Both the position numbers and the translations under genes were made by a program. A model generated the notes under the pieces. That model did not search any database. It had not been told where the DNA came from and saw only the letters and a program-made list of their open reading frames with translations. A stretch of DNA of 64,000 nucleotides from Rubellimicrobium roseum (lineage in GTDB: Bacteria; Pseudomonadota; Alphaproteobacteria; Rhodobacterales; Rhodobacteraceae): NCBI RefSeq assembly GCF_006152145.1, contig NZ_VDFV01000002.1:62001-126000 (forward strand), written 5' to 3'. Positions 18,389-41,078 of the stretch are shown here, in pieces. The stretch's first letter is position 1, and each line of letters begins with the position of its first letter.

Positions 18389-18417
18389 TTGCGGAACCCC
18401 GGTCCGCTTCCCTACAC
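18389..18417 (+). promoter_or_regulatory. Ancestral serC promoter, now cut off from serC
   Basis: TTGCGG (18389-18394), a 17-base spacer and CTACAC (18412-18417) on the plus strand. Transcription would begin 6-8 bases later, exactly at the attachment core. Before integration this would have been directly in front of serC. It now fires toward the 3' end of the minus-strand integrase gene. Confidence 0.5.
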
Positions 18418-18424
18418 CTGTCGG

Positions 18425-18448
18425 TGGGACACCCCTCCCCAACGAGGG
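18425..18448 (+). repeat. attL: left copy of 24-bp attachment core
   Basis: A 24-bp sequence, TGGGACACCCC... ending ...CCCAACGAGGG, is repeated perfectly at 41031-41054. It lies 10 bases beyond the stop end of the integrase gene. Flanking sequence differs completely on the inner side, as expected for attL/attR. Confidence 0.9.
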
Positions 18449-18458
18449 TTGTGGGCTG

Positions 18459-19469
18459 TCACGAGATTTCCCTTCCTTTCAAGTATGTTGCAAATCCTTC
18501 GTTGCTGACCTGTGTCACTGGCGTGCCAAAAATCGCATCAGTGAGGGTCGGATCGTCTATCGCGTGGGCATAGGTCCGCAGGACCGTGGTGGCATCCTTC
18601 CAGCCCCCGAGCTTGGCCACCGTCTTGACGTCATTCCCGGCTCTAAGGAGCGTCGTGGCGAAGCCATGGCGGCAGGAGTGCGGGGTGAGGCGCTCAATGC
18701 CCGCGCGTTCGCATACGTTGTTCCACGTCTGCCGAACGCTGTCCCGCGCTGCCCAGGGGAAGACCTTGGTCTCAGGCTGCCGGTTCGATGGAATATTGGC
18801 GAGCGCGGCAAGTACAGGCGGGGGCAAGTGGGCGATGCGAGTGTCCAGCACCTTGTTCTGCCGAATGGTCACCAGGCGACGCGTCAGATCCACGTCTCCC
18901 CAGGTGATGGCCATCGCCTCACTGATGCGGGCTCCCGTTCCCAGCATGAGGAGGCAGAGCGCCCCGAGATGCGGAGACGCATGCGCCGCGAAGGCTTCTG
19001 CCCATTCTTTTGTCGCCGGGCGCTTGGGCGCCGTCTCCTCCTTGAACCTCTTACCCTTGATGGGCGGACACCAGCCCAACTCGGCCGCGAAGTTGATGAT
19101 GGCCACCGTAGGCTTGATGACCTGTCGGTTCCGGGTCGCCGCTTTCCCGTTGGGGTAGAGCTTGCGTGCGCTCTGGCGAATGGCCTCGGCTGTGATCTGG
19201 CGGACGGGTGTGTCGCGCCAGTGGTCCTCGATCTTGTCCAGGAAACGTGTCGGCTTCTCAGCCTCGCGATAGGCTATGGCCGCCTGCGCGAAGGTCAGGT
19301 GCGCGGCCGGCCCATCGAGATGACCTTTCCAGGCGCGGGACTCGGCGTCCGACGCGATGCGCTGGGCAAGGGTTTTGTCCGTCGTGCCCGTAGAGCCTCG
19401 TAATCTCCGACCGGCGACGGTCCCGCGGTAGTGCCAGATTTGGCCGCGGCGGTAGAGTTTGACGGGCAT
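18459..19469 (-). CDS. Tyrosine-type site-specific integrase
   Basis: 336-residue phage-type tyrosine recombinase that integrates and excises the element. N-terminal arm-binding and core-binding regions (residues 1 to about 150) precede the catalytic domain: Arg181 (GARISEA), Lys206, His264-x-x-Arg267 (HSCRH), Trp290 in the His/Trp position and nucleophile Tyr300 (RTYAHA). All catalytic residues are intact. It lies next to attL, with its 3' end nearest the attachment core. Confidence 0.95.
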   Translation of the reverse strand: MPVKLYRRGQIWHYRGTVAGRRLRGSTGTTDKTLAQRIASDAESRAWKGHLDGPAAHLTFAQAAIAYREAEKPTRFLDKIEDHWRDTPVRQITAEAIRQSARKLYPNGKAATRNRQVIKPTVAIINFAAELGWCPPIKGKRFKEETAPKRPATKEWAEAFAAHASPHLGALCLLMLGTGARISEAMAITWGDVDLTRRLVTIRQNKVLDTRIAHLPPPVLAALANIPSNRQPETKVFPWAARDSVRQTWNNVCERAGIERLTPHSCRHGFATTLLRAGNDVKTVAKLGGWKDATTVLRTYAHAIDDPTLTDAIFGTPVTQVSNEGFATYLKGREIS

Positions 19470-19651
19470 GGCCGCGCGTCCTCCAGCAGCATGTCGCAGT
19501 GATGAGGTAGGAGCACCATGCGTTTGCCCCAGATGCAGCAGGCTCCCAGCGCCCGTGCACGTTGCCGGACAGCGCGTTCGGAGAAGCCGTAATGACCAGC
19601 GAAGTCCTCGGGAGTCACGTAGTCCCGCAGCATGTCAGGACGGGTCGACAT
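19295..19651 (-). CDS. Small helix-turn-helix protein, possible excisionase
   Basis: 118-residue frame whose first about 55 residues (VTPEDFAGHYGFSERAVRQR) look like a MerR/excisionase-type winged-helix DNA-binding domain. The remainder overlaps the integrase N-terminus by 175 bases and is Arg/Pro-rich, so the true end is uncertain. It overlaps the upstream gene by 17 bases. Position before int suggests an excisionase or directionality factor; this is inference. Confidence 0.5.
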   Translation of the reverse strand: MSTRPDMLRDYVTPEDFAGHYGFSERAVRQRARALGACCIWGKRMVLLPHHCDMLLEDARPCPSNSTAAAKSGTTAGPSPVGDYEALRARRTKPLPSASRRTPSPAPGKVISMGRPRT

Positions 19652-20378
19652 CGCGGGCCTCTTTTGTGCAGTTAGGCGTCAAGCGAGCCAGTGCGTTGAG
19701 GCCAGCAGCCCCCAGCGTCCGCGTCGTTTCCAGGCAGCGTGTCGGCTCATACGAGGCGTCGGATGCAGTCGAGCGTTGCATGAAGCCAAGGATGATAGCG
19801 TAGTTGCCCTCGCCCGTGCCCCTGGGGAGATCTTCTGTTTCCCAACTTGGCCCCTTGAGTTTCACCCCTGCGGTCATCCTGCCACCTTGGTCACGAAGTT
19901 CGATCTGGTCGAACTCCAGAAATTCATGGTGAGGCGCGTACTCGAGAAACAGTTGGTGCAAGATATCAAGGAAGGTCGTTTCGGTTCGCCCAGCGTCGTA
20001 GTGAACACGCAGGCACCGCCTCGACAGGACCTCTTCAGCTTCCCTAATCTGCTCGTCTCTTCTCGGCAGATTTCGCTCGGGTACGGGGAAAAGCACATCT
20101 CTCACGTGACCGTCGCCTGGGTCGAACGCCAGGAGCCAAAGTGGCAGGCTCCACATCCGCCGAACGGCTTCGGGAGCCTTCGTCGGACCCTCTGGGGTCA
20201 GGGTGAGACCTAGAAGAGCAGGAAAGTCAGACGATTTGAGTGCCGCCGAACCCCGCCCGAGGGATGCAGACAGGAGCTTGCTCGCCTGCCCCACTTTGAT
20301 GATGGAGTTCGCGCGAGGAACGTCGCCCCCCAGCACGTCAACCATCCACTCATGTGCTTGCTTCACGGTTCCAGACAT
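19635..20378 (-). CDS. Hypothetical protein of the element
   Basis: 247 residues, no signal peptide or membrane span, no family recognised. The middle part (ERNLPRRDEQIREAEEVL, HHEFLEFDQIEL) is rich in charged residues. It overlaps the helix-turn-helix gene downstream and so belongs to the integrase transcription unit. Function unknown. Confidence 0.6.
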   Translation of the reverse strand: MSGTVKQAHEWMVDVLGGDVPRANSIIKVGQASKLLSASLGRGSAALKSSDFPALLGLTLTPEGPTKAPEAVRRMWSLPLWLLAFDPGDGHVRDVLFPVPERNLPRRDEQIREAEEVLSRRCLRVHYDAGRTETTFLDILHQLFLEYAPHHEFLEFDQIELRDQGGRMTAGVKLKGPSWETEDLPRGTGEGNYAIILGFMQRSTASDASYEPTRCLETTRTLGAAGLNALARLTPNCTKEARDVDPS

Positions 20379-20521
20379 GGAACTCGAATATCATTCGATT
20401 TAGAACTCTGCAAGACTTTCTGGAATGCGGTTCGACTTTCTTCGTCGTCTCGCGGCCCTCTGCGCCTCGGGGACTTGTTGCGCGCCTGCAGTCCCAAATC
20501 GTGAGTGTGTAAACGCGTGCC

Positions 20522-20698
20522 ATGGTCCGGTATCGCTCCGGCAAGTCGCTGCGCCTCAGTCAGCAAGCTGGTGGTGCCGCGCGGCTGGAGGGCAACCGCC
20601 GCCGCAGCAACGGGGCGCTCGCCATGGGTCTTGGTGGCTGCGCGATGGCTTCGCCGGTCAGCCGGGCGTGGAAGGGCTACTGGCAGCGGGCGGCTTGA
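20522..20698 (+). CDS. Possible 58-residue basic protein
   Basis: Open frame from ATG 20522 (MVRYRSGKSLRLSQQAGG) to a TGA inside the first operator palindrome. It is basic, and its last codons (KGYWQRAA) lie in the 25-bp repeat found again at 21301-21325. No good ribosome site and no family, so it may be only a remnant. It is the only coding candidate in the 360-bp stretch 20379-20738. Confidence 0.25.
   Translation: MVRYRSGKSLRLSQQAGGAARLEGNRRRSNGALAMGLGGCAMASPVSRAWKGYWQRAA
20670..20694 (+). repeat. 25-bp direct repeat, copy 1
   Basis: Identical to 21301-21325 (begins GGAAGGGCTACTGGC). The two copies lie 631 bp apart and bracket the tandem operators, the 62-residue gene and the WYL-like gene, suggesting a past recombination or insertion boundary. 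Confidence 0.7.
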
Positions 20699-20738
20699 GG
20701 TATTTACATACCTCAAGCCTTGGGGTATTATGATACCT
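20694..20738. promoter_or_regulatory. Tandem palindromic operators
   Basis: Two palindromes with the shared plan AGGTAT-N4-ATACCT. The first (20694-20717) has perfect 10-bp arms CTTGAGGTAT around TTAC. The second (20723-20738) reads GGGTAT-TATG-ATACCT. Centres are 25 bp apart and the second ends against the ATG at 20739. Geometry fits cooperative binding by a dimeric regulator; which protein binds is unknown. Confidence 0.6.
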
Positions 20739-20927
20739 ATGAGGTTAACCGATGCTCAGCTCTCTCACTTTCTAGGCCGGCTTAGCTGGGAGGCTGCGGC
20801 TGGACTAGGAGCGTTTGAGACTCTTTCCCCGCACTTGGCGGGCGATACGGCCCAGATCCACTTAAGGGCTATCCAGTCAGTCCTGGCTCAGATGCACCGC
20901 CTCAATGAGGCGGTCGCCGTAAACTGA
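20739..20927 (+). CDS. 62-residue small protein controlled by tandem operators
   Basis: Begins MRLTDAQLSHFLGRLSWEAA and is mostly helical with no recognised family. No Shine-Dalgarno is present: the operator runs up to the ATG, so the message may be leaderless, or start at the in-frame ATG at 20730. Its end overlaps the convergent WYL-like gene by 51 bases. Possibly an autoregulated antitoxin-like or regulatory protein; function unknown. Confidence 0.45.
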   Translation: MRLTDAQLSHFLGRLSWEAAAGLGAFETLSPHLAGDTAQIHLRAIQSVLAQMHRLNEAVAVN

Positions 20928-21248
20928 CTTGTCAAAGGCATGGCTCGGGAAGAACGTGTCTGCGCGCACGCTGACTTGAGCCAGCTTCCTCACTTCAAAA
21001 GGCCGAGGCTCCCAAGCGTTCAACGGAACGCCTGACGTGCGTAGCACCACGGCCAGGAGCAGGACGTCCCTGTCATCCTCGCCCCGATAGAGCGCGTAAG
21101 GCGCTAGCACGAGATCGCTGCTCTCATGCTTGGCATTGATGAGGCGTCGTTCAGCTAGTGCTGTCTCGATGTCCTTGGTGTCAGGGTCGTTGGGGCGGGC
21201 GGGCGGCCTGATGTGCGTAATGCCAAGCCCTAGGCCTAAACTCACCAT
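20877..21248 (-). CDS. Stand-alone WYL-like domain protein
   Basis: 123 residues. The pattern IETALAERRLINAKHES, LAPYALYRGEDDRD, then LLAVVLRTSG and PFEVRKLAQVSV resembles the WYL ligand-sensing domain (repeat AI..RR, PY.L......L.., R.F.L.RI). No helix-turn-helix is attached. A ribosome site CGGAGAC lies before the ATG. WYL proteins often regulate phage-defence or stress genes; assignment is by pattern only. Confidence 0.5.
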   Translation of the reverse strand: MVSLGLGLGITHIRPPARPNDPDTKDIETALAERRLINAKHESSDLVLAPYALYRGEDDRDVLLLAVVLRTSGVPLNAWEPRPFEVRKLAQVSVRADTFFPSHAFDKSVYGDRLIEAVHLSQD

Positions 21249-21300
21249 CTTAGTCTCCGCAGTTGACGATGAGGCAGCGTGACACGCCGCCCGGTGAGGC

Positions 21301-21325
21301 GGAAGGGCTACTGGCAGCGGGCGGC
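21301..21325 (+). repeat. 25-bp direct repeat, copy 2
   Basis: Second perfect copy of the sequence at 20670-20694, in the same orientation, between the WYL-like gene and hicB. It is followed directly by TGA in the frame that also ends the first copy's frame. Confidence 0.7.
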
Positions 21326-21388
21326 GTGATGCTCATCCCCGCCGCTGCCCAATCCGCAAAGACGCGACGGGCAACGGTTCGGGCGGCT

Positions 21389-21784
21389 CTAGCAGGCGCT
21401 CTGCTTACTCAGCATTATAGCCCCGATGGGCATATCCACCGGAGTCTCGCCCAAGCTGCGCCAACGAGTCTTTGCTGGCTCCTTGCCCTTCGCCGCTAAG
21501 GCGGCCTTGAGGCTGGCAATCTCCTCGGTCTGACGGGCGATGGTTTCATTCATTCGGTTCAGCATTGCGCGCACTTCAGCCTCGGCTTCCCCAGGCTGCG
21601 GGATATGGACTCCGCGCTCCGACTGAACTTCCATCCAAGCACCCATTGCCTCGCGAGCGTCGGCAATAGCAGCAGCCTCAGTATCCCCGTCGCCCATGCA
21701 CCCCGGCAGGTCGGGGAAGTAGGCCATGAAGCCTCCACCATCTTCAGCAGTGAGGGGGCGAACGACGATCACGTAGTCAGTCAT
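21389..21784 (-). CDS. hicB: HicB-family antitoxin
   Basis: 131 residues from MTDYVIVVRPL. The N-terminal half is the HicB partial RNase-H fold: the GGGFMAYFPDLPGCMGDGDT segment is diagnostic, followed by EAAAIADAREAMGAWMEV. The C-terminal half is a helical, probably coiled-coil extension rather than a clear helix-turn-helix. ATG at 21784 is preferred over an upstream Met because it places the start 8 bases inside the hicA end. It should neutralise HicA and may autoregulate. Confidence 0.88.
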   Translation of the reverse strand: MTDYVIVVRPLTAEDGGGFMAYFPDLPGCMGDGDTEAAAIADAREAMGAWMEVQSERGVHIPQPGEAEAEVRAMLNRMNETIARQTEEIASLKAALAAKGKEPAKTRWRSLGETPVDMPIGAIMLSKQSAC

Positions 21785-22082
21785 TAGCATCCTCCTTTCG
21801 TGATGTGTAGTTGCGATGAGCATGGGCAAAACTCACCAGTTCTCTGATATAGGGCGCCTTGATCGGTTTGGCGCTGGGGATGGTCAAAGAGTCGCGGATG
21901 TGGGGGCTCGACACGACGTGGTGAGATCCTCGCTTGGGCTTGCGGAACTCCAAGCCCTCCTGTTTGCATAATGTCTGAACGTCCGCAATCGTCCAGTCCC
22001 CTTGAGGGGCAGCAGCCATCCGATCAAGTAGCTTCTTTCCCTTGGACAGTTTAGTCCCCCGCTCTTCAAGATCACGGCACAT
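21777..22082 (-). CDS. hicA: HicA-family toxin (mRNA interferase)
   Basis: 101 residues; the last about 85 match HicA: KGKKLLDRMAAAP, then the double-stranded-RNA-binding-like core with the catalytic His in KRGSHHVVSSP and IPSAKPIKAPYIRELV. HicA cleaves mRNA when freed from HicB. The ATG at 22082 gives a slightly long N-terminus; SKGKKLLDR is the usual beginning, so the true start may be inside. Order hicA-hicB with overlap is the classical layout. Confidence 0.85.
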   Translation of the reverse strand: MCRDLEERGTKLSKGKKLLDRMAAAPQGDWTIADVQTLCKQEGLEFRKPKRGSHHVVSSPHIRDSLTIPSAKPIKAPYIRELVSFAHAHRNYTSRKEDAND

Positions 22083-23945: not shown

Positions 23946-26900
23946 GTGGAGGCGAACAAGTTCATCGCGCAGTGGGTGGGTGCTGGTGGAACGGAACGGC
24001 AGAACTCCCAATCCTTCCTCCTCGATCTGTGCGAACTCTTGGGCGTGGACCGGCCAAGCAGCCACACGCAAGGCGACTATGTGTTCGAACGCCCCGTGGT
24101 TCACGAAGAGCGGGGCATCCGCACCACCCGCTTCATCGACCTCTACCACCGGGGTCGCTTCATCCTTGAGTCGAAGCAATCTTCTCTGAGGATCAAGCGC
24201 GGCCCCCCCGACCCCGACCAACCCGACCTCGGCCTGGACGCCTCGGAGGCGCAGGCCCCCCGTGGGACGGCCGAGTGGGACCGGCTCATGGGGCGGGCCT
24301 TCCTTCAGGCCAAGGGCTACGTGGCCGACCTGCCCTCGGACCACCCCGCGCCGCCCTTCCTCATCCTTGTCGACGTGGGCCACGTCATCGAGCTTTACGC
24401 CGACTTCAGCGGACAGGGGCGCAACTATACCCAGTTCCCCGACCGCAACTCGTTCCAGATCACCATGGACCGGCTGCGCGACCCGGAGATGCGCAAGACC
24501 CTGTGCCTTGTCTGGCAGGACCCGGCTGCGCTCAACCCCGCCCGCCGCGCCGCCGAGGTGACGCGCGATGTGGCCGAGCGCTTGGCTCGCGTCGCTGCCC
24601 GGCTGGAGACCCGCCAGAACCCTGGCGAGGTGGCAGGCTTCCTTATGCGCTGCCTCTTCACCATGTTCGCGGAGGACACGGCCCTTCTGCCCAAAGACAG
24701 CTTCCGCAGCCTCCTGCGGGACCTCCTCGACCGGCCCCACGACTTTGTGCCCGCGCTGGAGTCGCTTTGGGCCAACATGGACCGGGGTCACTATGACGGC
24801 TCCCTGGGCGCCAAGCTCCGCCGGTTCAATGGCGGGCTCTTCCGCGACAACACCGCCCTTCCGCTCGACCGCGAGGGCATCGCGGAACTGTCGATTGCCG
24901 CGAGCCGCGACTGGCGCGACGTGGAGCCCGCCATCTTCGGCACGCTGCTGGAGCGCGCCCTTGACCCCCGCGAGCGCTCGCGCCTCGGCGCGCACTACAC
25001 TCCCCGCGCCTATGTGGAGCGGCTGGTGGTCGCCACCGTCATCGACCCTCTGCGGGAGGACTGGGACGACGCGCAGGCCACCATCTCCGAGCGCGTGAAG
25101 GGAGGCGACGAGGCCGGCGCTCTGGCCGAGGCCCGCGCCTTCCACCATAAGCTCTGCACCACGCGCGTCCTCGACCCTGCCTGCGGCACCGGCAACTTCC
25201 TGTATGTCACGCTGGAGCTGATGAAGCGCCTGGAGGGCGAGGTGCTGGAGCGCATCGAGGGACTGGGCGGGCAGGATAGCCTCAAGCTCTCGGGCGAGAC
25301 GGTGGACCCTTCACAGTTCCTGGGGCTGGAGACCAACCCCCGCGCCGCCGCGATTGCCGAGGTGGTGCTCTGGGTCGGCTACCTGAAGTGGCAGCTCCGC
25401 ACCGGGGGCCTATCGGCCATCCCCGATCCGGTCCTGGAGGCCCACCGGAGCATTGAGCAGCGCGACGCTGTTCTGGCCTGGGACGACCGGCGCCCACGCT
25501 TGGGGCCGGATGCCGCCCCGCTCACGGCCTGGGACCGCATCACCATGAAGCCGCATCCCGTGACGGGCCTGCCTGTGCCCGACGGCGACGCGCGCGTGGC
25601 GGCTTACGACTATGTCAAGCCGCGCCGGGCGGACTGGCCCGAGGCCGAGTTCATCGTGGGCAATCCTCCGTTCATCGGCGGCAAGGACATGCGGGCCGAA
25701 CTGGGAGACGGCTATGCCGAGGCGCTCTGGCGCGCGCGGCCCGAGGTGCCGGGCGGGGCCGACTTCGTGATGCAATGGTGGGACGAGGCGGCGCGGCGGC
25801 TGGCGGACACCAAGGGACGGCTGCGGCGCTTCGGCTTTATCACCACCAACAGCATCACCCAAACCTTCAGCCGCCGCGTGGTGGAGCGGCACCTTGGGGG
25901 CAAGGAGCCGCTGTCGCTCGCTTTCGCGGTGGCGGACCACCCCTGGGTCAAAGGCGCGGATCGGGCCAATGTCCGCATCGCCATGACAGTGATGCGCCGG
26001 GGTAAGCGCGAGGGCGTGCTGGGCCGCGTCATCGAGCAAAGCGACCTCGACAGCGACGCGCCCGTGGTCCGGCTGGGATTAGGGCGAGGAACAATCAGCG
26101 CTAGGCTGGCGCTGGGGGCGGACGTGACGGCGGCCGAACCGCTTCTGTCCAACGAAGGACTGTCGAGCCCCGGCGTGAAGCTTCATGGGGCAGGCTTTAT
26201 CGTCACACCTGCACAGGCGCGGGCGCTGGGACTAGGCACCGTGCCGGGCCTGGAACGGCATATCCGCCCCTACCTCAATGGCCGGGACCTCGCCCAACGC
26301 TCGCGCGGCGCGATGGTGATCGATCTTCACGGACTGACTGCCGAGCAGGTTAGGGACCGCTTTCCGTCGGTTTATGAGCACGTCACGGATCATGTGAGGC
26401 CGCACCGAGAGGAGAATAAGCGGGACAGCTACCGCGATAAGTGGTGGGCCTTTGGGGAGCCCCGAGCGGACTTGCGCGCCTTCACGCAAGCGCTGCCTCG
26501 ATTTATCGTGACGGTCGAGACAACCCGTCACCGGCTCTTCCGCTTTCTGCCTACTGGAACGCTGCCGGACAACATGCTTGTCACTGTTGGCCTCAGCGAC
26601 GCGGTTGCACTGGCGTTACTGTCCTCTCGCGTTCATGTCGGCTGGGCGATTGCGGCGGGTGGCTGGCTCGGGGTTGGCAACGATCCGCGTTACAGCAAGA
26701 CAAAGACTTTTGATCCCTTCCCTTTGCCTACACTCCTAACGGATCCTATGCCCGACGGTCATGCCGCCGCTCTTCGCGACCGCCTGCGCGACATTGGCGA
26801 GCGCCTGGAGGCCTTCCGCTCCGAGCGGCTAGCAGCTCTCCCCCAACTCACCTTGACGGACCTCTATAACCTTCTGGAGCGCTGCCGGGAGGCGTTTAAC

Positions 26901-27494
26901 GGCGGCCCGCACCTCTCGGACGAGGAGCGCGAGGACCACGCCCGCGCCCATATTTCGATCTTAGCCGAGCTTCACGACGACCTCGACCGCGCGGCGCTGG
27001 GCGCCTGGGGCTGGGACGAACTCGCCCCCGCTCTGGTGGGCCGACCCGGCGCGACGCTCCCCAGCGACCTCAAGTCGCCCGAGCAGGAGGAGGCCGAGAA
27101 CGAACTGCTGGCCCGCCTCGTCGCGCTCAACGCCGAGCGCCGGGCCGAGGAGGCGCGCGGCCAAGTCCGTTGGCTTCGCCCGGCCTATCAGGCACCTCGC
27201 TTGGGCGCCAAGGTTCCCGGCGCCGAGCAGCAGCGCGAGATGGAGGTGCCCCTTCCTGCCAACCTGCCTGACTCGCGTGCGTGGCCCGACGAGCCCCGTC
27301 ACCAGTTCTCCGAGGTGCGCGTGCTGCTGGAGGAGGCCGTGGTTGCGCTGTCGCCCGAGGATGTGGCCCGCGCTTTCAAGGGTCGCCTGACCCCCAAGCG
27401 CCGCGAGCGCGTGCGAGAAGTGCTTACCATCATGGCAGATCTGGGCATCGCGAGGCGAGCCGAAGGAGCTGGCCTATTTGCCGCCCGTCGGTAA
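23946..27494 (+). CDS. MmeI-like single-chain (Type IIL) restriction-modification enzyme
   Basis: 1182-residue protein combining nuclease, N6-adenine methyltransferase and target recognition in one chain. Nuclease motif Asp65-X9-Glu75-Ser-Lys77 (FIDLYHRGRFILESKQ) matches the D-X9-ExK of MmeI. A helical spacer (about 200-370) precedes the methyltransferase: motif I DPACGTGNF at 410-418 and motif IV NPPF at 573-576. The region from about 720 to 900 is the likely target-recognition domain, followed by a helical C-terminal domain. GTG start at 23946 with GGAGGG upstream. A solitary modifying methylase is the alternative if the nuclease is inactive. Confidence 0.88.
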   Translation: MEANKFIAQWVGAGGTERQNSQSFLLDLCELLGVDRPSSHTQGDYVFERPVVHEERGIRTTRFIDLYHRGRFILESKQSSLRIKRGPPDPDQPDLGLDASEAQAPRGTAEWDRLMGRAFLQAKGYVADLPSDHPAPPFLILVDVGHVIELYADFSGQGRNYTQFPDRNSFQITMDRLRDPEMRKTLCLVWQDPAALNPARRAAEVTRDVAERLARVAARLETRQNPGEVAGFLMRCLFTMFAEDTALLPKDSFRSLLRDLLDRPHDFVPALESLWANMDRGHYDGSLGAKLRRFNGGLFRDNTALPLDREGIAELSIAASRDWRDVEPAIFGTLLERALDPRERSRLGAHYTPRAYVERLVVATVIDPLREDWDDAQATISERVKGGDEAGALAEARAFHHKLCTTRVLDPACGTGNFLYVTLELMKRLEGEVLERIEGLGGQDSLKLSGETVDPSQFLGLETNPRAAAIAEVVLWVGYLKWQLRTGGLSAIPDPVLEAHRSIEQRDAVLAWDDRRPRLGPDAAPLTAWDRITMKPHPVTGLPVPDGDARVAAYDYVKPRRADWPEAEFIVGNPPFIGGKDMRAELGDGYAEALWRARPEVPGGADFVMQWWDEAARRLADTKGRLRRFGFITTNSITQTFSRRVVERHLGGKEPLSLAFAVADHPWVKGADRANVRIAMTVMRRGKREGVLGRVIEQSDLDSDAPVVRLGLGRGTISARLALGADVTAAEPLLSNEGLSSPGVKLHGAGFIVTPAQARALGLGTVPGLERHIRPYLNGRDLAQRSRGAMVIDLHGLTAEQVRDRFPSVYEHVTDHVRPHREENKRDSYRDKWWAFGEPRADLRAFTQALPRFIVTVETTRHRLFRFLPTGTLPDNMLVTVGLSDAVALALLSSRVHVGWAIAAGGWLGVGNDPRYSKTKTFDPFPLPTLLTDPMPDGHAAALRDRLRDIGERLEAFRSERLAALPQLTLTDLYNLLERCREAFNGGPHLSDEEREDHARAHISILAELHDDLDRAALGAWGWDELAPALVGRPGATLPSDLKSPEQEEAENELLARLVALNAERRAEEARGQVRWLRPAYQAPRLGAKVPGAEQQREMEVPLPANLPDSRAWPDEPRHQFSEVRVLLEEAVVALSPEDVARAFKGRLTPKRRERVREVLTIMADLGIARRAEGAGLFAARR

Positions 27495-30241: not shown

Positions 30242-32041
30242 TTAGCGGCCGCCACGCAGGTAGTTGGTCGTCGCGATGGGCGTAGCCCCCTGGGAGAGGG
30301 CTGCGAGCGCATTGGGCTGGCGCTGGAAAGCATCGAGCGTCGCCCGCGAGGCATCATCCAGTCCCACCATGAGGGGCAGCGCCCGCGCCTGTCCGCGCAC
30401 CGTGGCATCAGCGATGGCCTGCGCTCCAGAAGCCATCACTGGCAAGGCAGCGGCAATGGGTCCGGCGCCCCCGAAGCCCACCCCCGCCGTCGCAGCCCAC
30501 CCCTGGAGGCTCTTGGGTGAGAACAGGTCGGCAAAGCCCCGCAGCGCCCGCACGGCATTGGTGCCCCGGGCGATCTCCCGCATGGCCTGACGCTCGACGT
30601 CGTTGAAGCCGCGCAGGTTGCGAGGGTTGCGGATGAACGTGCGGAAACGGCTCGCGAGCGCCGCCTCGAAGCCACCCTGAGCGTTGCTTGCGTCCTCGAT
30701 GATCGTCTCTACGCGCTCCAGGCGGCGGGCACGCCCCCAGATCTCGCGGGCCAGACGCAGGGGCTCGCTGTCATCCCCCAATCCCTCGATCACGTCGTCA
30801 ATGTGGTCGATGACGAGGCTTGCCAGCCGGCGCTCGTCAGGCTCGATGGATCGGGCGACGACACCCGCCACGCGACGGGCCAGTTCCAGGCGCCCGAGGC
30901 CCTGATCCCCCGAAGCGACCTCCTGCAACTCGTCCAGCGCGACGCCAAGGCGGGGATGCAAGCGCGGATGGTAGCCCTCCTGACGCACCGCATCGGCAGT
31001 GTCGGTGGCGAGCTGCGCCAGCCGGGACTGAGGCACGACCACACCCGAGGCGTCGGACGCGTCATAGAGGCTCTGGGCTGTCGACTTGAGCCCTGCCACG
31101 GTCTCGGCCGCCGGCGTGCCCTGGAGCGCCTGAGCGGCCCGCAGGAAGCCCTGTCCGATGCCGGTGATCGCCGCAGCCCCGACGCCGCCCGTGACGGCTC
31201 CCAAGGCCGCTCCGAGCGTCCGGTCGTCCACCGTTTCGTCCAGGCCACCGACACCGTCCATGGCGCCGTACATGCCCCCTGTGGTCGCACCCACGCCCGC
31301 CGCGCGGCCAATGCGAGCCAAGGAGCCGACGCCACCATTGATGACGCGGGCCGCAAGGCCGCCCGGCCCGACGAGGCCCCCGCCGATCTCCGCCGCAATG
31401 GCCAGCCCAGGGCGCTGATCCCAAAGTTGCTCCTCCTGCTCGCGATAGAAGTCGCGCCGCTCCTCGTAGGAGCCCCGGCCCAGAAGTTCATCCACGCGCC
31501 CGGCGGCCTCGTCACCCACCAAGCCGAAGGTCATCGCCTCGCCGGCCTTGTTCAGCGCAGCACCGATGGCCTCGCCTGCATTCAGCGTGGTCGGGTCGTT
31601 GTCGCCCCACAGGAAGCCCCGTGCCTCGCGCCCGGCGCTTGCCAGCCAGTTGCGGGCCTCCGGACTGACCGGCAGGGACGTTCCCGGGGCAAAGGGCACC
31701 ACACCCTCCCCAGCGGCGGCACGGGCCGACAAAGCCCATTCCGGCACGTCTTCTGGCGCGGGGATCGGCAGGCCATTGGCGTCATACGCCACACCTTCGT
31801 CAGGGTCGGACGGCAACGCGGCCGAAGACTGGGGGGCGTTGGCTTCCGGCGCAGCGCTACGGACCGGAGGCATCTGCCCGACCGGCATGTCCAGGCGGGG
31901 GTCCTGACTGGGTTGCGGCTCGCGCGTTACGGCGCCTTGACGCGCAGCCTGCGCCATTCGGGCGAGGCGCTGGGCCGAGGCGGTGTCCCCGGCTTCATGC
32001 GCGTTGCGAAGGGCGCGGATGATCTGGTCATAGTCGGCCAT
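30242..32041 (-). CDS. Putative phage ejection / internal virion protein (large)
   Basis: 599 residues. Begins with the repeat-like helix IIRALRNAHEAGDTASAQRLA seen in many podovirus-type ejection proteins, then a Pro/Ala-rich linker, and a long Gly/Ala-rich amphipathic central region (about 220-310) that could insert into membrane. The C-terminal half is helical. Such proteins leave the virion and help DNA enter the cell. No lytic or enzymatic motif was seen. Start overlaps the upstream gene end by one base. Confidence 0.6.
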   Translation of the reverse strand: MADYDQIIRALRNAHEAGDTASAQRLARMAQAARQGAVTREPQPSQDPRLDMPVGQMPPVRSAAPEANAPQSSAALPSDPDEGVAYDANGLPIPAPEDVPEWALSARAAAGEGVVPFAPGTSLPVSPEARNWLASAGREARGFLWGDNDPTTLNAGEAIGAALNKAGEAMTFGLVGDEAAGRVDELLGRGSYEERRDFYREQEEQLWDQRPGLAIAAEIGGGLVGPGGLAARVINGGVGSLARIGRAAGVGATTGGMYGAMDGVGGLDETVDDRTLGAALGAVTGGVGAAAITGIGQGFLRAAQALQGTPAAETVAGLKSTAQSLYDASDASGVVVPQSRLAQLATDTADAVRQEGYHPRLHPRLGVALDELQEVASGDQGLGRLELARRVAGVVARSIEPDERRLASLVIDHIDDVIEGLGDDSEPLRLAREIWGRARRLERVETIIEDASNAQGGFEAALASRFRTFIRNPRNLRGFNDVERQAMREIARGTNAVRALRGFADLFSPKSLQGWAATAGVGFGGAGPIAAALPVMASGAQAIADATVRGQARALPLMVGLDDASRATLDAFQRQPNALAALSQGATPIATTNYLRGGR

Positions 32042-33528
32042 CAGCGCGTCCCTCCTTGCATGTAGAACCTCACGAGCTCGTCGTCGTCCATGTCATTAGG
32101 GATGGACGCTGGGGGCGTGAGGGCGGGATCAGCGCTGACATCGGCAGACGAGCCACCAGACAGCCGCAACTGTGCCGTGGTCAGGATGCCCCGCAGTTCG
32201 CTCAGTGCGTCGCGATAGTCCGCCTCGCTCTGGGCTGTGTCGAGTCGACCGATGGCTTGCGTGGCTTTCAGGCCTTCGGTTTCGGTGATGGCGCCGCCCC
32301 CCTTCAGGCTTTCGAATGCCTGGAGGAAAGCTTGCCCCTCCAGTTGGCGTGCGCGCGCCCCGAAACGGCGCATGGGCGTGCCAGGCAGGGCCTGCGTCCA
32401 CGACCACATGCCGGTGGACCAGCCCATCGCCGGATCGTTGAGGATGCCGTCGATGGTGCCGATCATCGACTGAACGGAGGCAGGGTCGATGCGCCCCGCT
32501 TCGGCGCCGGTCGGTCCTTCCACAATCTCCACGGTTCCATCAGGACGGACGCGGGTGGTGGTGCCGCGCGGCGGGTCGATGGCCTGCTCGTATTCGATGC
32601 GGGTCATCGGAACGCGGCCGGCAGCGTTCTCCTCCGCCGCATACCGCTGATACTCATCTGCGGGCGGCGGGTTCTCCAGTTGCTCCACCTGCAATTCTAG
32701 GCGGCGGCGCTCCAGTTCGGCTGTGGGGTCGGGCTGCGTATAATCCGCAATCACCTCGCCCGTCCCCCTGTCGAGCAGGCGGTCACCCATGATGACAGTC
32801 TCCCGCTCCAGCGCCTCAGGCGCTCCGGTGCCAGAGATCGGCGACAGCGTTCCGCCCTCTATGGTGAACAGAGCGGCAGGGTCCTCTACCTGGGCGCCGG
32901 GATACATCTCTGCGACCTGCGCCCCCGTGATGATCTGCGGCTCGGCGGTTTCGACGCCCGAGAACACCGGCTGACCGTGCGTGTCGCCGCCGACGTAGCG
33001 AGCCACGCCGTTCTGGTCCTCGCGGATCTCCGGATCGGGCTGCGTGAACCACTCGCGGTCAAGGCCCGCAGCAGCAGCCATGGACGGGAACGCTTCCATG
33101 GGAGGCACGGGAAGCCGCTGCGACTCGAAGATGGCAGTCCAAGCCTCGGGGTCCTGCGCTTCCCACGCCTGCGAGGCGGCGCGCATGAGGCGCTGGTCCG
33201 CTTCGTTCAGTTCGAGTTGCTGCGCCTCGGCCTGTTCAGCCGCGAACCGCTGGCCCTCAAGGTCGCGCGTCTGGTGCGCCGAGAGCAGCGTTGACGCCCT
33301 CTCCGGATCAATCGCCGCAAGCGCGTTGATGGCCACAGTGTCACCCCGAAGCGCGTTGGCTCCGTGCTGGTCAGCCCAGCCACGGAGTGCGTTCTGCTGC
33401 TGGATCTCCCGCATCGTGGCCCCGTTCTGGAGGCCTACGGTGAAGGGGTCGCCGCCCGACGGGGAGACGGACCTGAAGAACGAGGTATCAACGGCCGGGC
33501 GCTGAAAGCGGAAGACATCGCCGTTCAT
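32041..33528 (-). CDS. Putative phage virion / ejection-associated protein
   Basis: 495 residues, acidic and largely helical. The C-terminal region contains FLQAFESLKGGGAITETEGL..KATQAIGRL, a motif that recurs in phage structural or ejection proteins, and a central coiled coil (ELERRRLELQVEQLENPP). Directly upstream of the larger ejection-like gene with a 1-base overlap. Function inferred from this motif and the neighbour only. Confidence 0.6.
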   Translation of the reverse strand: MNGDVFRFQRPAVDTSFFRSVSPSGGDPFTVGLQNGATMREIQQQNALRGWADQHGANALRGDTVAINALAAIDPERASTLLSAHQTRDLEGQRFAAEQAEAQQLELNEADQRLMRAASQAWEAQDPEAWTAIFESQRLPVPPMEAFPSMAAAAGLDREWFTQPDPEIREDQNGVARYVGGDTHGQPVFSGVETAEPQIITGAQVAEMYPGAQVEDPAALFTIEGGTLSPISGTGAPEALERETVIMGDRLLDRGTGEVIADYTQPDPTAELERRRLELQVEQLENPPPADEYQRYAAEENAAGRVPMTRIEYEQAIDPPRGTTTRVRPDGTVEIVEGPTGAEAGRIDPASVQSMIGTIDGILNDPAMGWSTGMWSWTQALPGTPMRRFGARARQLEGQAFLQAFESLKGGGAITETEGLKATQAIGRLDTAQSEADYRDALSELRGILTTAQLRLSGGSSADVSADPALTPPASIPNDMDDDELVRFYMQGGTR

Positions 33529-34479: not shown

Positions 34480-35310
34480 TCAGTGGATGGTGGGCTCGGC
34501 AGCCCGCAGGACGGCCCGGCGGTGCCCTTCCAGCTCATCAGGGAGGTCGTCCCCCTCGAAGACATGGAAGGAAGCGTCGGCGATCTGGCCGCGCAGGAGG
34601 GACCAGACGATGCGCCAGAGCGTGCGTTCGCAGGTCAGCGGGCTGCGGGTCACGAATGATGGCGACCCCGGCGTGCCTGCATCGATCATGCCCGCGCAGT
34701 AGCCTTCGGGCTGACGCCAGACGTAGACGAGACGTCCGCCCTGATAGCCCGCCGGAGCGATGGCCAGGATCTCACCCCAGCTTGGCAGGCAGACCTGGGC
34801 CGCCCAGTTCGCGGCGGCGTTCGATCCGCCCAGCCCCACGACGGAGTTCGCATCGAGGCCGACACGGTGCAGATGTACGAAAGCCTCCGCCGCCGACACC
34901 GTCACCCCGACGCCCTCCAGCAGATCGCCCCACGCCGCGGACGGGCAGAACTTCTTGGCCTCCCAGAGCATGGCACCGGCCGACAGGGCAGCTTCCGCTT
35001 CCTTATGGGCATGGAGCGTGCAGGCTATGGCACTGGTCAGAGCGGCGTCCCGGAGGGTCGCGAGGCGCCGCAGCGGAAAGGCCTGCTGCTCCGCAAAGGA
35101 TCGCGCGAGGGTGGCAAAGGCAGCACCAGGAGCGCGACCCTTGTGCAAACCTTGCGGTTCGGGCGCCTCCGCCTCGCGCGCGCGCGTATTGGTTGCAGAA
35201 CTCTCCGCCCTCGGATGCCCCGCGGCAGCGCATGTGTCAGCCCCGCTGCTGGGCCCCTCGGGCGCGAAGGTCCGTCTGTCGCGCCAGATCTGGTCAACAT
35301 ATGTAACCAT
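34480..35310 (-). CDS. DUF3102-like phage protein
   Basis: 276 residues. The central stretch EAALSAGAMLWEAKKFCPSAAWGDLLEGVGVTVSAAEAF has the 'LW.AK....G.W..wl' pattern of DUF3102, a helical domain found in phage and plasmid proteins. The C-terminal half contains several Trp and Cys residues with no clear fold. The ATG shares one base with the stop of the primase-polymerase gene. Confidence 0.55.
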   Translation of the reverse strand: MVTYVDQIWRDRRTFAPEGPSSGADTCAAAGHPRAESSATNTRAREAEAPEPQGLHKGRAPGAAFATLARSFAEQQAFPLRRLATLRDAALTSAIACTLHAHKEAEAALSAGAMLWEAKKFCPSAAWGDLLEGVGVTVSAAEAFVHLHRVGLDANSVVGLGGSNAAANWAAQVCLPSWGEILAIAPAGYQGGRLVYVWRQPEGYCAGMIDAGTPGSPSFVTRSPLTCERTLWRIVWSLLRGQIADASFHVFEGDDLPDELEGHRRAVLRAAEPTIH

Positions 35311-36422
35311 TAGACCTCTCCCCCTGCCCCCCCGCCCCCATGGAGCGGCGTGACGTTCGCGCTGGGGGTCAGCGGGCGAGCCAAGCGATAAGTCCGGGCC
35401 CGTCGTCCTGCGCAGTGGTTCGCAGCTACCTGAAGCAGACCTCGGCTCAGAAGCATGTCGCGGGCAGCAGCGAAGCGACGACGCGTCAGGTCGGTGTGCC
35501 CGGCCTCAAGCATGCCTGTGTGGTCAAGCGCGAAGGCGTAGCCCGGCCGATGCCCATGCTGGTCCTGGAGCGTGATGAAGAGGGCGACTGCATCAGAGCG
35601 GTTGGGGGCTCCTTTGAGCGCATCCAGCGCCTGACGCTCCACCCTGAAGGCGCTCGCACGACCGCAGTACACATGCCCCTCCAATCGGCAGCGCCACGCC
35701 CATTCGCCGATCCGTCGCACCTCCTCCTCGGGCAGGGTGGTCGGCGATACGCAGAGATGATCGCGAACTGATGTCAGCGCCTCCTGCATTTCGATCAGGC
35801 TGTTGACCGACCCGACCGTAGCAATGGCAGCCTTGAGGAGTGCATCATGCCGCCCGCCTTCCGGCACTGGCTCTCCTGCCCCGAGAAGTCGTGCGGCCGA
35901 CTTCGAGCGGGAGAGCGCAATGACGGGCAACTCGTCCTGGCCGAGCACGCCCTTGGCCGTGAAGTAAGCCCCACCGTCAGGTCGGACGGAGCCTGGCCCC
36001 ATGACGTAGCTTGTGGCTCCCCGCTTGAGATCCACCGCATGCCCTTCGCCGCGGAGGTTGGGATAGACCGGTCGCTCGATGTTGGGCGCGCGATAGAAAA
36101 GGTGCCGTCCCCTCGGGGTCCGAATGTGGACCGGTGACGCGCCAAACCGCGCCTCCATGACCGAGACCAGAGCCGGGTCGTCACTGTCGCAGTCGATAAC
36201 GGCGAGGCCACCCAGCCGGATGCCGTAGCAGGTCGAGCCAGTCCGGTGCATCGGCGCGAGGACACGCTTCAAGGGCAGCCGCGCCGTTCCTGAGAAACCA
36301 AGGAGCGGCGCCTTGCCGTCTGCCCCCCGGCCAAGTGGCAGGAGGCTGAAGCCAGCGCCATGGAGGCGAGCCATCTCAGAGGGCAGGCTGCTGACGGCGA
36401 GATCGAAGGCGCGGGCGTTCAT
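35310..36422 (-). CDS. Bifunctional DNA primase/polymerase (AEP/Prim-Pol type)
   Basis: 370 residues. The archaeo-eukaryotic-primase-type catalytic domain occupies about residues 10-200: metal-binding Asp77-Cys-Asp79 (AVIDCDSDD), then HIRTPRGRHLFYR and VDLKRGATSYVMGPGS, as in the bifunctional Prim-Pol family of mobile elements. The C-terminal 170 residues are a helical domain of unknown role. The start ATG (36422) overlaps the HNH stop. Likely primes replication of the element with the TOPRIM-helicase. Confidence 0.82.
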   Translation of the reverse strand: MNARAFDLAVSSLPSEMARLHGAGFSLLPLGRGADGKAPLLGFSGTARLPLKRVLAPMHRTGSTCYGIRLGGLAVIDCDSDDPALVSVMEARFGASPVHIRTPRGRHLFYRAPNIERPVYPNLRGEGHAVDLKRGATSYVMGPGSVRPDGGAYFTAKGVLGQDELPVIALSRSKSAARLLGAGEPVPEGGRHDALLKAAIATVGSVNSLIEMQEALTSVRDHLCVSPTTLPEEEVRRIGEWAWRCRLEGHVYCGRASAFRVERQALDALKGAPNRSDAVALFITLQDQHGHRPGYAFALDHTGMLEAGHTDLTRRRFAAARDMLLSRGLLQVAANHCAGRRARTYRLARPLTPSANVTPLHGGGGAGGEV

Positions 36423-36694
36423 GCCGCCTTGTCCTTCTTTTCCATCGCGTGAAGCGCCTTGTGGTGCGTCCGGCAGAGCCACTGGACGACAAGGGGCGTG
36501 TCGTAAGAAGGGTGATGGGCCTCGCTCCTCGGGTCACCGCAAACCTCGCAGGGCTTCTGTTGAACGAGGCCGCGCTTGAGCCCGGAGCGAAGCGCCGAGT
36601 GAGCCCAGTACTTCTGCGGGTTCCGCTCCCGCCAAGCTTCCTGTCGCGTGGGTTTCCGAGGAGGAAGAACGGTCGGATTGATGGGGTCGCTCAC
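36419..36694 (-). CDS. HNH-like endonuclease protein
   Basis: 91 residues with a compact zinc-binding HNH core: CEVCGDPRSEAHHPSYDTP..WLCRTHHKALH (Cys pair, HH, Cys and HH). GTG start at 36694 overlaps the stop of the upstream 54-residue gene as GTGA. Phage HNH proteins of this size nick DNA and often assist packaging or replication; the exact role is unknown. Confidence 0.72.
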   Translation of the reverse strand: MSDPINPTVLPPRKPTRQEAWRERNPQKYWAHSALRSGLKRGLVQQKPCEVCGDPRSEAHHPSYDTPLVVQWLCRTHHKALHAMEKKDKAA

Positions 36695-36957: not shown

Positions 36958-36961
36958 TTTT

Positions 36962-38435: not shown

Positions 38436-38807
38436 GTCTTCGTCCTGAACGCGTGCGATGGCGAAGAGGGCGCAAGGGGATCGCTAGGGGCGTCGTCAAT
38501 CATAGGTGACTCCAAGAAGGCGTTGCAGAGATCGAGGAAGAGGTGCGCCGTCATTCATGTTGGCTCTTGATGCACGCGGCAGAGGCGTCCGCATCGACCA
38601 AGAGCCATGACGGTCACCGGGGCCTCAGCCCCTCGGGCAACAGTAGAAAGGCGTGCACCCCGCCTCTCAGGGCGGGTGCAGCGCTATAGGGGGTATGGGG
38701 GTGTGTGTGGCTAGGGGGTTGAAGGGGGTTTGCAGGGAGGGTTGAAGCCACTTCCGTAGGGTGGGTTGAACTGGGGTTGAAGGGGGTTGAAGCGGCCCGC
38801 GTGAGCA
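38436..38807. other. Non-coding region with terminator, short coupled frames and iterons
   Basis: Between the primase-helicase and the acidic protein. From right to left: the iteron array (38716-38792); a hairpin at 38654-38680 (TGCACC...GGTGCA with one bulge) followed on the minus strand by CGCCTTTCT, a probable terminator of the helicase message; then two tiny ATGA-overlapping frames (38555-38608, 17 residues; 38496-38558, 20 residues) of doubtful coding value. Confidence 0.45.
38716..38792 (+). repeat. Five-copy GGGTTGAA(G/C) iteron array, candidate replication origin
   Basis: Copies start at 38716, 38739, 38763, 38774 and 38784 (GGGTTGAAG four times, GGGTTGAAC once), with spacings of 23, 24, 11 and 10 bp, close to whole helical turns. 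The block is G-rich on the plus strand and lies 16 bases past the end of the primase-helicase gene. Position and phasing fit initiator-binding iterons. Confidence 0.6.
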
Positions 38808-40691
38808 TCATCGGATCGCTCTCATCAGGAACTTTACGCGCCGCGAGGGCGGGCCTTCCTCTCCGATTGCAAGGGTGCCGTTGCTCAGAAGGCTGTTCAT
38901 CGCAGCCGCGAAAGCGTTCTTGGTAACACCTTCGGACTTTGGGTGCTTGGCGAATTGCGAGGGGGCATAGGTCGAGGCGCCTGCATGGTTCACCCGGCGT
39001 CCCTGGCTCGTGAACTCGTCCAAGAGCTTCAGAAACACCCGCTCGGCCTTGGCTCCTGCCGCCATCTTGTCGAGGCCCGACGGCGCCACGTCGGCCACGA
39101 AGACCCCGCCGCGCCACGTCATGCCGATCTCGCCTCCGACCCGGCTGTAGTTCGCCTTCTTGGTCGTGAGCACCCGCTTGTCCGGCTCAGGCTCATGCCC
39201 GTCCTGGATGATGCGGGACAAGTAGAGCCGCGAGCGCACCGAGTTGTTCCAGGCCGTAGATCCCGACGAACCCGAGCCGGAGGTTAGGCCTGTGAGCGAC
39301 GGGTGCCCCAGCAGCATTACGGCGCAGCGCTGCCGGATCGCGAGTCCCCGCAGGATCCCGATGAACTGGCGCACCTTCATGCGATCGTTCTCGTTGGCTG
39401 GATACACGTCCGCGAGCGTGTCTATCACGACAAGAGCCGGCTGCTCGTCGGCGGCGCGGGCCTCCAGTTCCTGGAAGAGCGCCGAGGCCATCAAGGCCAG
39501 TCCGCTCTCCACTGCCAGAAGCGCGTCCTCGCCCGCAAGGCTGCGAAGCGTCAGACCCTCGATGTCGTCATAGGTTCGTCCGATGGCCCGGAGGATGTCG
39601 TCGGTGCGGCGATGCAGCTCGTCGTCGTCATCCTCGGCTGAAAGGTAGATGACCCGTCCTTGCGCGACATCCATCCCGAGCCAGCCGCAGCCTGAGGCCA
39701 CGGCGATGCCAAGCTGATGCGCCAAGAGTGACTTGCCGGTCCCTCCGTCGCCCGAGAACAGAGTCACGGTTCGATCGGGCACAAGGCCGGGCACCAGCCA
39801 GGGGCGCTCGGGCACCGGCCTGCCCTTGAGGCTCGCCGCCGAGTAGAAGCGCGAGGCCCGTGAAGCCGCCTCGTTGTGCGCCGTCTCCTGAGGCCGCCAC
39901 GGCTGGGTCTCTTGGCAGAGCCTCAGCAGCTCCTCGATGTCGCCATCTGACGCGATCCAGTCCGACACGTCGCCCTTCTCAGGGAGGCCCGGGAGAGCCA
40001 CAATCCGCACCTCGGCTGCGGTCTCTAGCAGACTCTCCGCAACCTGACGCGCGTGCGCCCGGCCAGCCTCATCGTTGTCAGGCAGGATATAGACGATGCG
40101 GCCGGTGAACCACCGGTTGAGGTCGGAGGTCCACTTGCCAGCCCCCTCTGAGGCGGTCGTGGCGACCAGCCCAAGGCGGTCCAGCGCGTCTGCGTCCTTC
40201 TCGCCTTCTGCAATCAGCACAGGTGCATGGGGGGACGCCAGGAGCTCCGGCAACCTGTAGGGCACCTTCGGACCTTTGGGCTTGCCCTTGGCCCAGCCTG
40301 TGCCTGTCCAGTGCTCCTGCGGGAAGCTCTTGGGGTCCTTAAGGCGGGTCACCTTGAGGTAGGGCGTGCCGTCTTCGAGATGGTAGACGTATTCCGCGAC
40401 TTTGCGCTGCGGCCGTCCCGGGCCACCCTGCCGCTCCTTGTCTCCCCGAGGGGTCCAAGGCGCCCGGCCAAGGCACTGGAGCACGTGGTCGCGGCATTTC
40501 TGCCAGTCGTCGCCTGCGTGACTGTGCACGACGAAGCCGTCCGGGTTGTCGGGCGCCAGCTTGACCGACAGGCTGCGGTCCTTGGGGCTGTGACCGGGTC
40601 CAGGCGCATTGATGCTCTCGGGACCGGTCACATCACCGTCCAGAGCAGCCGCCAAATTGCGCAGGCTGAGGATTGGTTGATGCATGGTCAT
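38808..40691 (-). CDS. TOPRIM primase / RepA-type AAA helicase of the element
   Basis: 627 residues. The TOPRIM core has EGEKDADAL with Glu162/Glu164 and the D-x-D of ILPDNDEAG (Asp205, Asp207). A RecA/RepA-like ATPase follows: Walker A GDGGTGKS at 314-321, Walker B region ALVVIDTLADV and a C-terminal helix-turn-helix-like segment. Fits a replicative primase-helicase or origin-unwinding protein. Start at 40691 overlaps the upstream small-gene stop as ATGA; a second Met is two codons in. Confidence 0.87.
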   Translation of the reverse strand: MTMHQPILSLRNLAAALDGDVTGPESINAPGPGHSPKDRSLSVKLAPDNPDGFVVHSHAGDDWQKCRDHVLQCLGRAPWTPRGDKERQGGPGRPQRKVAEYVYHLEDGTPYLKVTRLKDPKSFPQEHWTGTGWAKGKPKGPKVPYRLPELLASPHAPVLIAEGEKDADALDRLGLVATTASEGAGKWTSDLNRWFTGRIVYILPDNDEAGRAHARQVAESLLETAAEVRIVALPGLPEKGDVSDWIASDGDIEELLRLCQETQPWRPQETAHNEAASRASRFYSAASLKGRPVPERPWLVPGLVPDRTVTLFSGDGGTGKSLLAHQLGIAVASGCGWLGMDVAQGRVIYLSAEDDDDELHRRTDDILRAIGRTYDDIEGLTLRSLAGEDALLAVESGLALMASALFQELEARAADEQPALVVIDTLADVYPANENDRMKVRQFIGILRGLAIRQRCAVMLLGHPSLTGLTSGSGSSGSTAWNNSVRSRLYLSRIIQDGHEPEPDKRVLTTKKANYSRVGGEIGMTWRGGVFVADVAPSGLDKMAAGAKAERVFLKLLDEFTSQGRRVNHAGASTYAPSQFAKHPKSEGVTKNAFAAAMNSLLSNGTLAIGEEGPPSRRVKFLMRAIR

Positions 40692-40873
40692 GCGAGCACC
40701 GCCCCGGATTTGTAGACCCGTTCGACGCTGTTGGACTCACGATCCCAAAAGAAGAGGCTTGCCCGGAGGCGCCCTGGTCGGGCATACAGATGATGAAGAC
40801 CAGCAGTCTTGCTAACAGCCCCGGTTGCGCCCGCCAGCGCGCCGGGGTTTTTGCTTGTCTGGACCCGTGACAT
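40688..40873 (-). CDS. 61-residue leader gene of the replication operon
   Basis: MSRVQTSKNPGALAGATGAV then a basic aromatic tail (RASLFFWDRESNSVERVYKS). Its TGA overlaps the helicase ATG as ATGA, so it is translationally coupled to it. No family recognised. It is the first gene of the leftward replication unit, whose promoter should lie in 40874-41000. Confidence 0.5.
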   Translation of the reverse strand: MSRVQTSKNPGALAGATGAVSKTAGLHHLYARPGRLRASLFFWDRESNSVERVYKSGAVLA

Positions 40874-40995
40874 CTGCCTGAGCCGCTCGACCTGCACTGA
40901 CGTGCGTGTGTCAGATTTGTGCCGCTGATGCCGCGAGGTCGGTACATCGTTCTGCACATTGGAGCACGGTTCAGCAGGGGCGAACCGCTGGTCTC

Positions 40996-41024
40996 TTGCT
41001 TTTTTTACTGGGGTTCCGTAGGGG
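40996..41024 (+). promoter_or_regulatory. Element-derived promoter-like sequence in front of serC
   Basis: TTGCTT (40996-41001), 17-base spacer, TAGGGG (41019-41024). The distance from the -10 to the attachment core is 6 bases, against 7 for the native promoter at 18389-18417. The -10 is a poor match, so strength is uncertain, but the matched geometry suggests it replaces the native serC promoter after integration. Confidence 0.35.
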
Positions 41025-41055
41025 CGTCCTTGGGACACCCCTCCCCAACGAGGGG
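41021..41055 (+). promoter_or_regulatory. serC: serC leader RNA hairpins (possible serC motif)
   Basis: Two hairpins that share bases. One pairs GGGGCGTCC (41021-41029) with GGGACACCCC (41032-41041), with one mismatch. The other pairs CCCCTC (41038-41043) with GAGGGG (41050-41055) around CCCAAC. Both use 41038-41041, so only one can form at a time. Location just before serC fits the serC leader motif reported in Alphaproteobacteria; I recognise it by position and sequence flavour, not by alignment. Confidence 0.45.
41031..41054 (+). repeat. attR: right copy of 24-bp attachment core
   Basis: Identical over 24 bp to 18425-18448. It lies 24 bases upstream of the serC ATG and inside the serC leader hairpins. 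The base after the core (G41055) belongs to the chromosome and completes the 6-bp stem that attL cannot form. Confidence 0.9.
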
Positions 41056-41078
41056 CCATATACCTGGAAGGGTAGATC

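Follow-up and report, generated by a model that had tools for sequence, protein, structure and literature searches.

Based on the comparative evidence collected in this study, the 22.6 kb of integrase-bearing DNA inserted upstream of serC in Rubellimicrobium roseum is best explained as an integrative element whose integrase targets hairpin 1 of the serC leader RNA and whose own DNA replaces the serC promoter such that serC stays on, a reading to which we assign a probability of about 0.85. To proceed as proposed, the tyrosine integrase would recombine the element's 24-bp core with leader hairpin 1 at the transcription start, and the right end of the element would supply a promoter (TTG at -36, TA at -13) in the host's own register, to which about half of the elements would add a terminator-like hairpin placed upstream. 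The serC promoter would be replaced without switching serC off, the anatomy being conserved and continued transcription being what that anatomy predicts. Features of the window, that is, the whole 64,000-nucleotide stretch of DNA analysed, are collected in Table 1.

Table 1. Coordinates of the serC-leader element, its junctions and neighbouring genes (window positions)
Feature	Position	Strand	Evidence and remarks
serB, phosphoserine phosphatase, divergent neighbour of the native serC promoter	17446..18315	-	TIGR00338, 203.8 bits (cut-off 144)
Native serC promoter, now severed from serC	18389..18418	+	TTG 18389-18391, TA 18413-18414
attL core, partial copy of serC-leader hairpin 1	18425..18448	+	RF00517, 30.6 bits, below cut-off
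Bridging ORF, 5' part	18425..18462	-	GTG overlaps the int stop (GTGA), then MTAHNPRWGGVS
Tyrosine integrase (int), 336 aa, 3' end towards the left core	18459..19469	-	PF00589, 96 bits; phrog_1
MmeI-like type IIG restriction enzyme-methyltransferase (cargo)	23946..27494	+	four MmeI Pfam domains; PADLOC 1413 bits
Prim-Pol primase/polymerase	35310..36482	-	PF09250, 50 bits
Toprim + AAA_25 primase-helicase	38808..40691	-	PF13481, 128.8 bits; Toprim matches below cut-off
Bridging ORF, 3' part	40688..41030	-	126 codons in all once the ends are joined
Terminator-like hairpin and T-run, towards serC	40818..40852	+	-22.6 kcal/mol for 40818-40858, z -2.26
TGACACA heptamer, probable integrase arm-type site	40907..40913	-	+134 from the core's TGGGG; presumed function
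Element-borne serC promoter (putative)	40996..41024	+	TTGCTT 40996-41001, 17 bases, TAGGGG 41019-41024, 6 bases, then core; native register, read from sequence
serC leader RNA, restored at the right junction	41028..41080	+	RF00517, 60.8 bits (gathering score 35)
attR core, leader hairpin 1	41031..41054	+	
serC, phosphoserine transaminase	41079..42233	+	TIGR01365, 597 bits

Two identical cores, 22606 bp apart, bound the element as the sequence-only reading had proposed, and the integrase gene lies between them, adjoining one of the two repeats. Together with flanking letters the core forms a 29-nt direct repeat (93%) that is among the two longest listed for 17900-41600; a genome-wide search allowing up to one mismatch returned 2 copies only, and the G+C content is 0.65 within the element versus 0.70-0.72 outside. 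The serC side is flanked by serA (TIGR01327, above its cut-off). In relatives the left and right flanks join at the core: 20 of 31 oriented loci consist of divergent serB, one leader and serC. These loci comprise 30 from a near-exact core search together with one from the same-genus genome G291 (G numbers denote genomes, L numbers loci), and empty sites were defined by a divergent serB within 400 bp and serC downstream, such that 11 loci were dropped on the serB criterion, two of them occupied sites.

The core had been placed at the presumed serC transcription start, and there it is; what had been missed is the identity of the DNA, for the core is the conserved 5' end plus first hairpin of the serC leader RNA. 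The RF00517 match covers the full model length upstream of the serC start at 41079, and the target is thus a cis-regulatory RNA. Putative start sites are described as sitting directly before the serC motif, whose last hairpin would contain the ribosome-binding site (PMC1273637); with the core at the leader's 5' end, integration would therefore occur inside the regulatory RNA, at its first bases. That 2005 paper found no ligand for the serC leader and, in its description of the leader, makes no mention of an attachment site (PMC1273637). Literature searches, judged mostly from their listings, returned no published naming of the leader as an attachment site. Once the element has integrated, a full leader is present at the right junction and a remnant of it at the left. 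Because the core regenerates hairpin 1 and the host retains hairpin 2 together with the ribosome-binding site, the leader is, by its sequence, whole after integration; in the other carriers its serC-side copy scores 62-75 bits. Within the class, 115 of 385 genomes have a leader match at E<=1e-3, and under stricter filters a second copy was found in G000 only. Separately, G244 has two serC leaders above the cut-off (L034, L038), both at contig ends and with no integrase at E<=1e-70, which could represent a duplication, an assembly effect or another element.

The case for promoter replacement is carried by the register, counted from the first G of the leader's GGGACACC. Of the 20 empty sites, 19 have TTG at -36 and all have TA at -13. 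Given this invariant TA at -13/-12, TACACC (18413-18418) is the better reading of the native -10: the promoter letters reported earlier, TTGCGG (18389) and CTACAC (18412), are in place, and the frame of the -10 required correction. The native spacer in this genome is then 18, and the native TTG of the window lies one base outside the family register. On the element-borne side of the serC junctions, TTG occupies the native -35 place in 28/28 elements and TA the native -10 place in 26/28 (22/22 and 21/22 in the elements first collected, 6/6 and 5/6 in the six fetched later); in the two elements that miss the TA, G397 and G896, it is displaced by a single base. Near-identical sequences make up nine of the 28 right ends, and kinship was considered by merging: at 80% identity or above, 20 groups remain (TTG in 20, TA in 18), and at 70%, 12 groups (TTG in 12, TA in 10). 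The spacing TTG-N20-TA recurs at 11 of 49720 other positions in the first 22 right ends, a background of 0.0002. Since four of the six later elements are at least 90% identical to earlier ones, fresh tests are provided by G896 and G859 only: G896 has the TTG and its TA off by one, G859 has both. On a position matrix built from the empty sites, 19 of 22 element-borne sites fall within the top 1.7% of their own right ends (exceptions G221, 6.5%; G396, 5.9%; G397, 16.5%), the window's own site scoring -3.2 (top 1.5%). The mean is 0.0 for element-borne versus 15.4 for native sites, so equal promoter strength is not claimed. A consensus promoter and terminator scan of the window's right end listed nothing; with no more than a TTG/TA pair for a promoter and a bulge in the hairpin, both features are probably beyond the reach of such a scan.

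The swap of the serC promoter that had been proposed from the single sequence is thereby supported beyond chance, at the level of the DNA letters. Because the register is kept across junctions, promoter replacement gives the impression of a conserved design, and integration appears unlikely to cost serC its expression. Host serC can probably stay on after integration and, if the swap works, would now depend on element DNA. The opposite outcome had been considered on grounds of a weak new -10, with serC cut off from its promoter, expression lowered, and partial serine auxotrophy or a switching of serC by excision as the consequence. The native promoter is indeed displaced by 22.6 kb, and the element-borne sites do score below the native ones on the empty-site matrix; nevertheless, 18 of 20 distinct right ends keep the register, which would be surprising were expression lost, and the serC-side leader is intact in the other carriers. 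The supposed weakness of the -10 finds no support, the TA being the strongest -10 feature that the native sites share. We consider a polar loss improbable.

Another explanation would have the TTG/TA pair serve not as a promoter at all, and mark integrase binding sites or a conserved coding frame instead. Heptamers of the type TGGCACA/TGACACA are found 11 bp apart at fixed distances from the core in most right ends (+123/+134; +133/+144 in G399 and G400), with none in the right ends of G309 and G221, and similar heptamers occur near the 3' end of int in most elements; both sets are probably integrase arm sites. Furthermore, the TTG/TA letters fall within an open frame on the other strand. Against this, the host's empty sites show both motifs at the same place, the Mesorhizobium elements G399 and G400 keep the motifs though the frame is absent from them, and the amino acids encoded there are not conserved as codons. 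A purely non-promoter role of the pair is held to be very improbable.

Hairpins facing serC with a folding energy at or below -15 kcal/mol are present in 13 of 28 right ends, the window's included, as compared to 1 of 28 on the opposite strand, and this suggests insulation rather than phage control. The proposal that serC-serA comes under the control of the element's own operon, as could happen through read-through when the element is induced, draws on serC now adjoining element DNA and is nonetheless scarcely probable and unsupported for the window, where the primase-helicase gene of the right end points away from serC and a terminator-like hairpin stands between the element's genes and the serC promoter, facing serC, although 15 of 28 right ends are without a strong one.

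That the integrase targets leader hairpin 1 is consistent with the distribution of its close relatives. All 29 of 29 close integrases in genomes (50-64% identical, together with the window's own) adjoin a serC-leader core. The same-family sample of 394 genomes contained 14 with an integrase at E<=1e-70, followed by the core in 14/14. Nine loci came from a named-genome search; one of them, L061, belongs to the genome already counted as G256, and in the remaining 8/8 the core is beside int; the core of L057 has one extra base and was recognised by reading the sequence, the pattern search having missed it. A further seven close integrases, 7/7 beside the core, came from 390 genomes sampled at order level, together with three distant ones (34-39% identity), 0/3 beside the core. 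Named carriers include Shimia, Marivita, Paracoccus and Mesorhizobium, and int is interrupted in carriers G056, G396, G401 and G859. Both ends lie on one contig in 18 of 28 elements and on different contigs in 10, so that the ends of the latter are presumed pairs. No claim is based on the integrase tree, in which 11 of 31 inner branches stay open and the outgroup sits on long branches (G402, with a partial integrase, and G377 were left out). No intact tRNA was found at the loci of three outgroup integrases, and the sole tRNA match from Rfam, a weak one, was at L139 (23.8 bits, below cut-off); T-arm-like letters at L139 and L141, read by eye only, hint at tRNA-gene targets.

Seven loci from viral contigs were considered, three of which (L066, L067, L070) end within 63 bases of int and are outside the tally. 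Weak leader matches near int were obtained in three of the four readable loci (L069, 20.4 bits; L071, 26.5 bits; L072, 21.4 bits), with the core of L069 about 670 bp away from int. No leader core was recognised by Rfam at the fourth, L068, whose integrase is 57% identical; by eye, heptamers like the probable arm sites are seen there at about 11000-11250, with a different core, possibly a diverged leader. The integrase of Bradyrhizobium phage ppBeUSDA76-2 is 54% identical, in a record that ends at the int gene.

The joined ends of the element (attP) reveal an additional feature. An open reading frame crosses the core in 25 of 28 elements (20/22 and 5/6; absent from the joined ends of G399, G400 and G859) with a length of 72-229 codons, and attP lies inside this frame, whose first part is not conserved as protein. 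The peptide crossing the core reads RWG(G/R/E)VS, with RWGGVA in G395 and HWGRVS in G056. The start of the frame overlaps the int stop in 13 of 25 elements and lies 2-56 nt after it in nine, int being interrupted in three; its stop overlaps the next start codon (ATGA) in 23 of 25, the exceptions being G094 and G402. In the window, the ATGA overlap joins the bridging-ORF stop to the primase-helicase start. The gene after the overlap comprises at least 68 aa in 22 of 23 elements and is interrupted after 19 aa in G056. The bridging ORF is predicted to be whole only in the circular form: in the integrated state the frame enters host DNA, where it stops after 12-16 codons in 12 of 24 elements read (16 in the window) and runs longer in the remaining 12, staying open to the end of the stretch in G349. 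In five elements (G094, G309, G221, G258, G394) the bridging frame holds with the attR core only, not with the attL core. The attL cores of the same five show small differences from the intact attR leader, as if the left remnant drifts once free of selection. The DNA outside attL in L120 (G094) and L119 (G151) resembles the right end of another element, with its TTGCT...TA pattern, which suggests tandem elements at serC.

A conserved protein as the product of the bridging ORF was considered and rejected for the first 47 codons, where differences amount to 0.374, 0.399 and 0.392 by codon position and pN/pS is 0.86, no different from the other forward frames; with no codon-position signal, the conserved letters of this part, which make up the promoter and, in most elements, the heptamers, are conserved at the level of DNA. 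After the core, G+C by codon position is 0.505, 0.549 and 0.462, versus 0.63, 0.48 and 0.74 in the next genes. All 20 rows keep the frame open, as compared to 11.5 +/- 1.9 in column shuffles that ignore kinship (never more than 17 in 500 shuffles); the remaining two forward frames are open as often as such shuffles lead one to expect, and 15 of 20 rows also have one reverse frame open across much the same region. Shuffles of each element, likewise ignoring kinship, gave 0.004 to 0.27. We infer translation through the joint, with a product that is little constrained. The C-terminal part of the ORF is a real domain in G309, G396, G256 and G151, and it matches a separate gene, the next one, of G050.

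At attL, the displaced host promoter has TTG and TA both in register in 18/22 and 6/6 elements, the window's TTG again one base off, and it points into the 3' end of int in antisense direction (window 18389-19469). Being in register, it could allow antisense RNA to int to be made when the element is integrated. Upon excision, int would lead across the joint into the core-crossing ORF, whose stop overlaps the first far-end gene; the open frame and the overlapping stops would tie translation of the far-end operon to the circular state. Taken together, the two ends might work in both directions as a single device around the serC leader. To the right, integration would give serC a cassette of terminator, promoter and leader, and to the left, excision would link int to the far-end operon via an ORF constrained mainly to stay open. 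Ribosomes starting at or near the int stop would be carried across attP into the first far-end gene, such that translation across attP acts as an excision sensor, with the far-end operon on in the circle only; in the integrated state, the displaced serC promoter would run antisense to int. This extension of the promoter-replacement reading is offered tentatively, and we regard it as rather doubtful in its entirety.

Attachment sites of integrative elements are usually the ends of tRNA, small-RNA or coding genes. As regards the replacement of a gene's 5' end, there is a clear analogy to the dusA islands, integrase-bearing elements that enter the 5' end of their target gene and bring a replacement sequence, with putative -10/-35 regions reported before and after integration (PMC4482086). 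The serC elements are alike in 5'-end entry and in a replacement sequence with promoter boxes, and a replacement promoter is likewise found at their 5' junction, as far as sequence can tell. They differ in their target, a coding 5' end for dusA and, for serC, a non-coding, cis-regulatory leader RNA lying at the start site, and in that promoter register was compared here over 28 elements. In mycobacteriophage BPs, which exhibits integration-dependent immunity, attP lies in an ORF and integration changes the product (PMC4557955). Location of attP inside an open reading frame is thus shared; in BPs, however, the repressor loses its C-terminal end, whereas in the serC elements an unconserved ORF is deprived of its start and uncoupled from the gene that follows. 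By this analysis, 5'-end replacement (dusA) and attP within a gene (BPs) are known, and the serC leader as target together with the attP-crossing ORF would be new.

These results have importance in that the elements enter a conserved regulatory leader belonging to a serine-synthesis operon, and in that the promoter is kept in register over diverged right ends, in Rhodobacteraceae as well as in Mesorhizobium. Carriers and empty sites constitute natural promoter-swap pairs for the serC leader, the two strands of attP may serve opposite jobs, and the integrase clade could become a site-specific tool in alphaproteobacteria.

Gene content varies between the elements. Five small relatives of about 10-11 kb (G397, G050, G094, G309, G221) have a large terminase; four of them also have head genes and a primase-helicase or replication initiator, and for G309 one protein only was scanned. 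No tail genes were detected among the scanned proteins of the five, which we take to resemble capsid-forming phage satellites (cfPICI). Terminase and head genes without tail genes characterise cfPICI; the element in the window differs, with no terminase or head gene among 26 ORFs scanned by Pfam and 10 by PHROGs. Restriction-modification cargo is found in the window and in G286 (type III). Further observations within the window are a HicB-like antitoxin domain at 21389-21829 (PF15919, 34.3 bits) and, at 30242-33528, a pair of neighbouring genes for which PHROGs gave matches to an internal virion protein (weak) and to a protein released on phage entry.
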